From NCBI GenBank assembly GCA_023664945.1, contig JAMPER010000003.1, positions 1 to 64,000 on the forward strand: 64,000 nucleotides of DNA, given 5' to 3'. This document shows, piece by piece, positions 29,368 through 32,407 of the stretch. The position numbers were made by a program, and so were the translations under genes. The stretch is from Alistipes senegalensis (lineage in GTDB: Bacteria > Pseudomonadota > Gammaproteobacteria > Burkholderiales > Burkholderiaceae_D). Below the pieces are notes generated by a model. That model searched no databases, was not told the origin of the DNA, and saw nothing but the letters and a program-made list of their open reading frames with translations. Position 1 is the first letter of the stretch, and each line of letters begins with the position of its first letter.

Positions 29368-30825
29368 ATGATGCAACCCATATCAGGAAAGCAGGGCAAA
29401 AAGGAAAGGCAGGCATGGTTGTGCCTGCTTTTTGCCATCTGTTTTGCGTTATGGCCCGATGCTGTGCTGGCTGATGATTATGCGGCGGGCGCGGCCTTTT
29501 ACCGGCAACGGGAATACCGCCGGGCGCTTGACCTGTTTGGCCGGGCGGCGCAGCAGGGGAACAGGCGGGCGCAGGCGGCGTTGGGGACGATGTATTACAA
29601 CGGCGAGGGAACGCCGGCAGACCATGCCCAGGCAGCGAAGTGGTATGAAAAAGCGGCACGGCAGGGGGATGCGCAATCCCAGTTTGATTTGGCCGGTATG
29701 CTGGAGGAGGGGGAAGGCGTGCCCCGGGATGAGGCTGCGGCGGCGAAGTGGTATGAAAAGGCAGCGATGCAGGGCCATGCCAAGGCGCAGGATAATCTGG
29801 GGTTCCTTTATTCGGAAGGCCGCGGGGTTGTGCAGGATGATGCGCTTGCGCTGATGTGGTTCAAAAGGGCGGCGGAACAGGGATTGCCCGAAGCGCTGGC
29901 CAATCTGGGCGTGTTTTATTCGGAAGGCAGGGCGGTAGAGAAGAATCCGGCGCAGGCGGCCAGCCTTTACCGGCAGGCGGCGGCGCAGGGGCTGGCAATG
30001 GCACAGTATGAGTTGGGCCATGCCTGCAAGGAAGGGCATGGTGTGCCGAAGGATGTGGCACAGGCCGCAAGGTGGTACAGGAAGGCAGCCGAACAGGGGT
30101 ATGCGGAGGCTCAGTATGAACTGGGGCAGCTTTACCTGGAGGGTCATGGTGTGCCGGAAGATGATGAACAGGCGATGGCATGGTTTGCCAAGGCAGCAGA
30201 AAAGAATTTGCCCGAGGCGCAAGCCAGTATTGGCCTGATGTATGCGACGGGCCGGGGTGTTGAGAAAAATCCGGAAGAAGCGGCTGCGTGGTACGAAAAG
30301 GCGGCCGGGCAGGGTTTTCCTGAAGCGCAGCTTTTATTGGCCGAGCTGTATTACAAGGGAGAGGGGGTATGGCGAAATGATGCGCTTGCGCTGAAATGGT
30401 ATGGGCAGGCGGCCGAACAGGGTTTGCCTGAGGCGCAGGACGCCATGGGGCTGATTTATACGCGTGGCGACGGGGTTGAGCGCGATTATCATAAGGCGGT
30501 GGAATGGTTCAGGAAAGCGGCCGATCAGGGATATGCGGAATCCCAGAATAACCTGGGGTTTATGTATGCAAGAGGGCTGGGGGTGGAACAGGATTATGAA
30601 ACAGCCATCAAGTGGTACCGCAAAGCGGTGGAACATGATTTGCCCCAGGCCCAGTTTAATTTGGGCAGTATGTATTTGCGCGGGGACGGCGTCAGGCAGA
30701 GCGACCAGACTGCTGCCCAGTGGTTTAAAAAGGCGGCTGACCAGGGAATGGAGGCGGCCCGTGAGAGCCTGGAGCGTATCATGATACGGGGGCAGCTGCT
30801 TAGCGAAGAGGAAAGAAGTATTTAG
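29368..30825 (+). CDS. Large secreted Sel1-repeat protein (11 repeats)
   Basis: 485 residues. Signal peptide MMQPISGKQGKKERQAWLCL with cleavage near VLA-DDY, then a TPR-like cap (AAFYRQREYRRALDLFGRAA) and eleven Sel1 units, such as ALGTMYYNGEGT, NLGFLYSEGRGV, ELGQLYLEGHGV, SIGLMYATGRGV, NLGFMYARGLGV and NLGSMYLRGDGV. No Cys in the mature repeats. It is 95 bases downstream of the preceding Sel1 gene, so the pair may be co-transcribed. Its end is followed by A+T-rich DNA and the C10 tract. Confidence 0.92.
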   Translation: MMQPISGKQGKKERQAWLCLLFAICFALWPDAVLADDYAAGAAFYRQREYRRALDLFGRAAQQGNRRAQAALGTMYYNGEGTPADHAQAAKWYEKAARQGDAQSQFDLAGMLEEGEGVPRDEAAAAKWYEKAAMQGHAKAQDNLGFLYSEGRGVVQDDALALMWFKRAAEQGLPEALANLGVFYSEGRAVEKNPAQAASLYRQAAAQGLAMAQYELGHACKEGHGVPKDVAQAARWYRKAAEQGYAEAQYELGQLYLEGHGVPEDDEQAMAWFAKAAEKNLPEAQASIGLMYATGRGVEKNPEEAAAWYEKAAGQGFPEAQLLLAELYYKGEGVWRNDALALKWYGQAAEQGLPEAQDAMGLIYTRGDGVERDYHKAVEWFRKAADQGYAESQNNLGFMYARGLGVEQDYETAIKWYRKAVEHDLPQAQFNLGSMYLRGDGVRQSDQTAAQWFKKAADQGMEAARESLERIMIRGQLLSEEERSI

Positions 30826-30886
30826 CCAGACAGAAAAAAGATTTTTATTTTTGCTGATTAAAATAATCGTACACAATAATTATTTT

Positions 30887-30896
30887 CCCCCCCCCC
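30887..30896 (+). repeat. C10 homopolymer tract in the 5' leader of the opgB-like gene
   Basis: Ten consecutive C, nine bases before the ATG at 30906, where a ribosome binding site would normally sit. A promoter candidate, TTGCTG (30851-30856), 18 bases, AATAAT (30875-30880), would place the transcription start at about the first C. The length of such tracts changes by slipped-strand mispairing. Confidence 0.85.
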
Positions 30897-30905
30897 TTGC
30901 GAACC

Positions 30906-32407
30906 ATGAAATATTTATCAGGTATTTTTCGATTTATCACGGCATTAACCGGATTCCTGGCTATTTTCTTTTTAACCACAACAAAATGGCTCACCGCTAC
31001 TTTTGGAAAAAATATTACCATTGACCAAATATTGTTTCATCTGGTTACACCGCAATCCGGTGTAAGCCTTAAGATTGTTATGAAAATTGCCGTCTTCTTC
31101 CTTGTTTTAATTGCGGGGGGGGGGTATGGGTTTTTCTTGTTTACAAAATTGATTATTTCTCCCGCCTTTTCTTTTCATTGCCCGGTATTCTCATAGCATG
31201 GCATAAAAAAGCCTCTGCCCTCCGGATTCAGCATAATAAAAAATACTTTTTTATCCTTCTTTTTCTTTTTATTATCAGCCTGATTACAGGTTATATCAGT
31301 TTAAAAAAGGCTGATAACAAGCTGCATATCAGGGAATATCTTTCATCTCGTCAGGAAACGACAGGAAAAGATTTTTTTTCGGAACATTATCAGGTTCCGC
31401 CGGCTAGTGAAATTACCTTTAACAAAAAGAAAAACCTGGTGATTGTGTTGGCGGAATCCCTGGAAAACAGTTTTTCCGATTCCCGTATTGGATCTTCTCT
31501 TATACCGAATCTGGAATCATTCAAAAAACAATCACGGCACAATCTTAACCAGATACAGGTTCATGGAACCGGCTGGACGATTGGCGCCATGACAGCATGG
31601 CATTTTGGCGTGCCATTGAAACTGCCGGTTGACGGGAACAACTACAGCACCAAATTTGGCCATACAACGTTCCTTCCCCATGCCACAAGTATTTTTGATA
31701 TTCTCGCCGAAAACGGATATGAACAGGTATTGTTGCTGGGAAGCAAGAAAGCCTATTCAGGCAAGGATAATCTTTACAAGCATGGCAATTTCCGCATACT
31801 GGATAAGGCCTATTGGAAAAAAGCAGGCTATGACATAGATAAATTCAAAGGAACGGACTGGGGATACAATGATGCCTTCTTATTTGCCCGGGCAACAGAA
31901 ATGTATCAAGAGCTGTCCCTGAAAGGGAAGCCTTTTGTCCTGGTTATTGAAACGGTAGATACGCATTTCCCTGATGGTTTTTGCCCTGAAGAGGAAAAGG
32001 TTTACTACGATATCCGTGACGCGATTGTGAAAACGGACAGGGAGCTGGGGAAATTCCTTGCAGAAAATTTTGCAAGGAAGACTGACGATACGGTAGTTGC
32101 CGTATTGGGTGACCATTTGTTTATGGGAAATCCCGTTTTTCTTTCTCCTGTTCGCGAAAGAACTATTTTTAATGCTTTTGCCGGGGATGTGCCGTCATTT
32201 GGAAAGAGAAAGCACTCAGAGAAAGTATCTGCGCTGGATATGGCTCCTACTTTGCTGGAAGCAGCCGGTGCAAAATGGGGATCTTCCCGGTTTGGGCTGG
32301 GGGTCAGCCTGTTTTCTGATGATCCCTCTCTGGTTTCCCTTTACGGGGAACAGGAACTGAACCGCCTGCTCGCTCAATATTCTGCTTTTTATGAGGCTCT
32401 GTATTGA
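30906..32407 (+). pseudogene. OpgB/MdoB-like phosphoglycerol transferase, frameshifted at a G10 tract (phase-off or assembly error)
   Basis: The N-terminal part is read from ATG 30906 (MKYLSGIFRFITALTGFLAI, then NITIDQILFHLVTPQSG) and breaks after the G run; its frame ends at 31196. The rest is in another frame, open from 31073 to 32407: more membrane helices, then a sulfatase-fold domain with NLVIVLAESLENSFSD, GTGWTIGAMTAWHFGVPL (Thr of GTGWT is the expected nucleophile), ETVDTHFPDGFC and VAVLGDH. These match the family that transfers phosphoglycerol to periplasmic glucans (OpgB/MdoB) and the related LTA synthases. With eight or eleven G the frames would join and give about 500 residues. No Shine-Dalgarno is visible. 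The gene is A+T-richer than its neighbours. Confidence 0.8.
31115..31124 (+). repeat. G10 homopolymer tract inside the opgB-like coding region
   Basis: Ten G in a row, read as Ala-Gly-Gly-Gly in the starting frame. With ten G the frame is wrong for the C-terminal part. Eight or eleven G would restore it, giving LIAGG followed by VWVFLVYKIDYFS. This is the usual sign of a contingency locus. Confidence 0.9.

Follow-up and report, generated by a model that had tools for sequence, protein, structure and literature searches.

A guanine tract in a split Sulfatase-family gene of a probable Oxalobacter species: a candidate contingency locus for envelope modification

The window, i.e., the whole stretch of 64,000 nucleotides that was analysed, carries a gene of the Sulfatase family whose N-terminal and catalytic halves are parted at a run of ten G. 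The question raised by this locus is whether the length of the run switches the gene on and off, or whether the split reflects decay or an error in the assembly. Re-reading of the sequence and its translations confirmed that the tract is real and that the two frames part there. The features of the locus are as follows.

30887-30896, forward strand: leader run of ten C, with nine bases between it and the ATG at 30906, missed by the preliminary description.
30906-31196, forward strand: N-terminal frame, with an ATG start and 96 residues before a stop (from the translation).
31073-32407, forward strand: catalytic frame, open, with 444 residues and a stop (from the translation).
31115-31124, forward strand: run of ten G, encoding glycines in a hydrophobic stretch.
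31565-31579, forward strand: GTGWT motif, whose Thr151 (numbered as in the aligned piece) is invariant (7/7 sequences).
32105-32116, forward strand: LGDH motif, with Asp329 and His330 of the aligned piece likewise invariant (7/7).

With ten G at 31115-31124, a length taken from one assembly, the two halves are in different frames, and the arithmetic given in the preliminary description, by which eight or eleven G would fuse them, is consistent with the flanks. The N-terminal frame provides 69 residues ahead of the tract and includes long hydrophobic stretches that by eye constitute a membrane anchor; a search of 30906-31196 against Pfam gave no match. The catalytic frame has no further stop or frame break in its 444 codons and does contain both the GTGWT and the LGDH motifs that had been reported in it. 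Its first start codon is the TTG at 31178 and its first ATG lies only downstream of GTGWT, and it is thus unlikely to be well made alone. The GC content of the split gene is 42%, compared with 56% for the window.

A second copy of the gene is also split, at the matching place.

C8:895436-896936: second copy of the split gene, with a run of nine G at the matching place (C8:895645).

Ahead of the tract the two copies share 40 of 69 residues, and beyond it 256 of 425 (60%). The G9 of the second copy has the same flanks as the G10 of the window gene. The 40 bases at the tract are the most identical stretch between the copies (0.90 vs 0.68 overall, with the run itself counted). The tract lengths differ, 10 vs 9, and both are OFF lengths in the present assembly; apart from this break, the catalytic frame of the second copy (447 codons) has no other stop or frame break. 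Based on copy-against-copy comparison by the Nei-Gojobori method, omega is 0.28 before the tract (bootstrap 0.12-0.57) and 0.21 after it (bootstrap 0.14-0.28). These values argue against plain decay, since long-dead genes would look otherwise. The dS between the copies is, however, about 1.3 after the tract, so that omega is a long-time average and is compatible with a recent loss. Open frames and purifying selection were found on both sides of the G10 tract, as in a single coding sequence that is joined or split by tract length. A cut-off for phase-variable genes has been set at a G/C tract of at least nine in coding sequence (PMC5953494), and the tracts are G10 in the window gene and G9 in the second copy.

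Whether two runs of ten are more than chance depends on the control: they are surprising by shuffles of the gene region and unsurprising by shuffles of the whole window. Dinucleotide shuffles of the whole window gave a mean of 1.52 G10 matches, with at least two in 36/100, and the raw count of two is thus unremarkable in a G-rich window. The same type of shuffle, however, over-predicts G runs, since it expects 14.22 eight-base matches where 6 were observed. When the 1607-base gene region was shuffled, one run of at least ten was found in 19/2000 and two in 0/2000. The genome as a whole (1.93 Mb, 16 contigs) contains 26 G/C runs of at least eight, i.e., 12 of eight, 6 of nine, 7 of ten and 1 of eleven. 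If run numbers fall by a ratio of 0.25 per base, the expectation is 1.6 runs of at least ten among the 26, and 8 were observed (P 1.3e-4), while at a ratio of 0.4 per base the excess is marginal (P 0.045). The ratios measured within the window are 0.16-0.26 per base, and for such ratios the tail of long G/C runs is too heavy.

Four of the eight tracts of at least ten in the genome were compared with a sister species (G007), whose DNA is 93-94% identical on either side of the window gene. Three of the four differ in length with conserved flanks, and the fourth, the C10 tract ahead of the window gene, is equally long in both species. The three that differ are listed with their counterparts.

L055:8204-8213 (G000 C8:897203-897212): GDPD-like gene beside the second copy, G10 here.
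L113:2741-2751: the GDPD-like gene in G007, G11.
L056:5494-5503: family-9 glycosyltransferase (PF01075), C10 here, whole, 356 aa.
L159:3790-3798: the family-9 glycosyltransferase in G007, C9, split.
L057:4547-4556: leader of a TolC-like gene (PF02321), C10 here, directly before the start codon.
L110:11669-11679: the TolC-like leader in G007, C11, directly before the start codon.

Neither G10 nor G11 joins the frames of the GDPD-like gene, which is thus OFF in both species; its score against PF03009 is 21.3 bits, below the cut-off of 23.6. On either side of the coding tracts of the GDPD-like and glycosyltransferase genes omega is 0.19-0.33. The TolC-like gene, which belongs to the outer membrane, has by eye a possible ribosome-binding site upstream of its tract. 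At L056:10491-10501, a run of eleven G lies within the frame of a family-2 glycosyltransferase, and is followed by a pyruvyl transferase C-terminal half that is encoded in another frame.

The assembly of G007 is broken inside both copies of the split gene, and its G tract is unreadable there since the middle of the gene falls in the assembly gap. This middle part was absent from the G007 assembly by both DNA and protein searches, the latter returning only a 31% relative. Exactly 55 bases at the end of contig C10, from near the start of the open reading frame, recur at the edge of a 100-N gap in C11. Exactly 55 bases that finish at the stop codon likewise stand both at the start of C35 and at the end of C31. 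Equal overlaps of 55 bases would be expected from an assembler using 55-base words if the copies were identical in between, which suggests that the G007 copies are near-identical, putatively through gene conversion.

The leader C10 tract lies at the same position in G007, with its flanks kept and one base fewer before it, and no C tract was found upstream of the second copy. A search of 30700-31250 for a sigma-70-like promoter gave no match, and the C10 may lie in a promoter, in a leader or at an upstream coding start. Pairing in the RNA between the leader C10 and the coding G10 was considered and rejected: the minimum-energy fold of 30870-31196 does pair them partly, but it is no more stable than the folds of shuffled sequences (z -1.10, with 15/100 shuffles as stable), and the second copy is without a C tract. 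In addition to the coding G tract, the leader tract may tune expression of the gene.

Runs of at least ten G or C are present in at least 11 of the 13 genomes of the genus, although a number of them, those of G002 for example, resemble read artefacts. The survey set aside the G32/G31 runs of G002, which are of this type, together with the tracts of G001 and G008 and one of the two tracts of G006. Among genes of the AT3-SGNH acyltransferase type, one in G011 is in frame with a run of fourteen C and one in G005 is split at a G10, where the halves match profile positions 4-205 and 215-325. Another tract in G011 lies close to the end of a pyruvyl transferase gene, and in G007 a C10 comes ahead of the bulk of a sugar epimerase, which sits in another frame. 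The complete genome G003 (L100-L104) contains G/C runs that are 22 to 26 bases long, an unusual length, and that may be real or artefactual; the frame of a sensor kinase gene is broken at a run of 26 G. Also in G003, a run of eleven C at L105:2615-2625 immediately precedes the main reading frame of an N6 DNA methylase gene, with 73 upstream codons in a different frame, and it is possible that this methylase is phase-variable. One split gene in G006 is of a solute-binding type and is at odds with an envelope theme. As to the identity of the genus, a formyl-CoA transferase gene (429 aa) is located about 4 kb from the second copy; it matches TIGR03253 on part of its length (E value 8.8e-104), and that part scores below the whole-protein cut-off. 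On the basis of this gene, the genus is probably Oxalobacter.

The preliminary description had proposed that relatives be searched for the same tract. The second copy, with its G9 and split frame, carries one, whereas a G/C run of at least seven was found in 0/7 relative loci. Among the relatives, a protein of 506 aa (L054), 46% identical and from a metagenome-assembled genome (MAG) titled Desulfovibrionaceae, is encoded in one frame with no tract. The same holds for a protein of 507 aa and 28% identity on contig C13 of the same genome (L061:6187-7710), and for three relatives from the genus (L042, 509 aa; L043, 515 aa; L040, 529 aa). Relatives of the C13 type are also present in G007 and G001. 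Relatives of the split gene at an E value of 1e-25 or better were found in 3/399 genomes of the order, its own genome included; a search of the genome contig collection returned one relative, in a Desulfovibrionaceae MAG, and a plasmid search gave no match. The core of the gene, compared at the DNA level with the 12 other genomes of the genus (at most the best 23 candidates per genome), had no match, G007 being accounted for by its assembly gap, and at the protein level 3 of the 12 hold relatives, all only about 31% identical. The split gene was probably acquired. The gene upstream of it, at 29368-30825, is a Sel1-repeat gene (PF08238, 11 stretches), one of several long Sel1-repeat genes in the window between 23797 and 30825, the others being Sel1-like by eye. 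In G001, an open reading frame that is Sel1-like by eye comes after a relative of this upstream gene.

The catalytic piece (31178-32404) matches the Pfam Sulfatase family PF00884 (E value 5.8e-15; 55.8 bits with a cut-off of 25). Glu110, Thr151, His280 and the Asp329-His330 pair of the aligned piece are invariant in 7/7 sequences, which would be expected if the enzyme is an active member of this superfamily: the Thr of GTGWT is presumably the catalytic residue and the LGDH residues are presumably metal ligands. The only PDB sequence matched at an E value of 0.01 or better is that of VP1736 (PDB: 3lxq), an uncharacterised Sulfatase-family protein (E value 1.4e-15 over 76-367 of the piece), to which the likeness is one of sequence. 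The best curated models in NCBIfam are OpgB (E value 2.2e-41) and phosphoglycerol transferase I (E value 2e-40). For the catalytic piece alone, however, the OpgB equivalog NF003000 gives 142 bits vs a cut-off of 574, and NF009027 gives 139 bits vs 572; the intact L054 protein is also under both equivalog cut-offs, with 120 and 127 bits. As for OpgB/MdoB of E. coli (phosphoglycerol transferase I), the catalytic domain corresponds to positions 111-468 of the 763-position model, the rest of which is unmatched. Of the preliminary label "OpgB-like", therefore, membership in the Sulfatase family and retention of the catalytic residues can be kept, but equivalence to OpgB cannot. OpgG is a part of glucan synthesis in E. 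coli, and its family (PF04349) was found in 0/13 genomes of the genus, with the E. coli control positive (1/14 controls). This result, together with an OpgB equivalog score far below the cut-off, leaves the periplasmic glucans earlier named as the target without support. The enzyme is likelier to be a phospho-substituent transferase for another envelope glycan, with LPS, an exopolysaccharide or a protein-linked glycan as the most likely acceptor.

We consider it likely that the split gene is a contingency (phase-variable) locus whose product would transfer a phospho-substituent in the envelope. The hypermutable tract that was earlier proposed to set an ON or OFF frame gains support from the other length in the second copy, the selection on both sides of the tract, and the variation in three of the four tracts compared. 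In the proposed mechanism, slipped-strand mispairing would alter the length of the G tract within the membrane segment. Depending on that length, translation would either run on from the membrane anchor into the catalytic domain, giving one enzyme, or end soon after the tract. The latter is the present state of both copies, from which return would be possible. The enzyme, when made, would move phosphoglycerol or a similar phospho-substituent, putatively from phospholipid, to an envelope glycan other than the periplasmic glucans of opgG type.

Several other readings have to be weighed against a contingency locus. Since homopolymers are error-prone in sequencing, the true tract length might join the frames, leaving the gene always on; the G10 is known from one assembly, and length differences between assemblies can themselves be sequencing errors. 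The second copy is, however, split at the matching place with another length, the glycosyltransferase C10 is in frame in the same assembly, so that not all tracts are misread into breaks, and a run of ten at this place stays slippery even if its length was misread. We regard such an error as very unlikely. Slightly less so, though still decidedly improbable, is that a horizontally acquired gene is losing its function and that the G run marks a random frameshift. Decay would likewise give two OFF copies and a GDPD-like gene that is OFF in both species, and the AT-rich composition of the gene and the absence of a DNA match to its core in the 12 other genomes of the genus (at most 23 best candidates in each) would agree with a recent and dispensable arrival. 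Against this stand the low omega on each side of the tract, the otherwise unbroken catalytic frames of both copies with their catalytic residues kept, and the fact that the two copies are broken at the very same run.

It is also conceivable, although unlikely in our judgement, that the OFF state is leaky. Long G runs can cause slippage, and slippage of polymerase or ribosome, or initiation at TTG 31178, might yield some enzyme at every length, so that the tract would act as a volume control instead of a strict switch. The frame from this TTG retains, by eye, one hydrophobic stretch before the catalytic domain, but the codon has no evident ribosome-binding site (by eye) and the first ATG is downstream of the catalytic Thr. 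The least probable of the readings, which we consider hardly credible, is a phase-variable OpgB that decorates periplasmic glucans. The two best curated models would favour it, while the score of 142 bits against 574 and the result for OpgG in the genus, with its positive E. coli control, speak against it; we know of no phase variation in OpgB.

Beyond the contingency locus itself, we tentatively put forward a more elaborate arrangement, which we think rather doubtful, in which switching in this gut commensal takes place at two levels and two sites. One coding cassette with its G tract would be present at two expression sites, only one of which has a leader C tract, and would be copied between them by conversion, the copies having diverged here but being near-identical in the sister species. 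Which envelope modification is made would depend jointly on gene conversion and on the two tracts, in the leader and in the open reading frame, and the neighbouring, tract-controlled GDPD-like gene might act on a related glycerophosphodiester group.

Switches of this kind have been described elsewhere. In Neisseria meningitidis, a coding G run switches pptA, a phospho-substituent transferase acting on pili, and the switching was measured at about 1 in 100 colonies (PMC3656113). As described there, pptA resembles the present gene in that a surface phospho-substituent transferase contains a coding G run read as glycines, with some lengths in frame and others not; it differs in being another gene in another host, with pilin as its target. 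The Campylobacter gene N149_0993 is listed as phase-variable under the entry "Phosphoglycerol transferase, G (8-9)" (PMC6321876). By that annotation, on which the likeness depends, it is an enzyme of the present type whose G tract varies, and the passage on it mentions neither a second copy nor a leader tract. Given these two precedents, the kind of switch is already known, and the less usual aspects of the present locus are the host, which belongs to another phylum than Campylobacter, the tract in its leader, and the presence of two copies that are probably subject to conversion. Among the matches listed in a search of the open-licence literature, no paper on phase variation in Oxalobacter was found.

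Oxalobacter has been studied as a helper against kidney stones. If the proposed reading is true, a bacterium whose genus has the formyl-CoA transferase of oxalate breakdown, probably Oxalobacter, varies its envelope by chance switching, as do Neisseria and Campylobacter, and the list of tracts given here makes the question of switching open to amplicon sequencing. Such variation could bear on colonisation and on escape from phages or antibodies.
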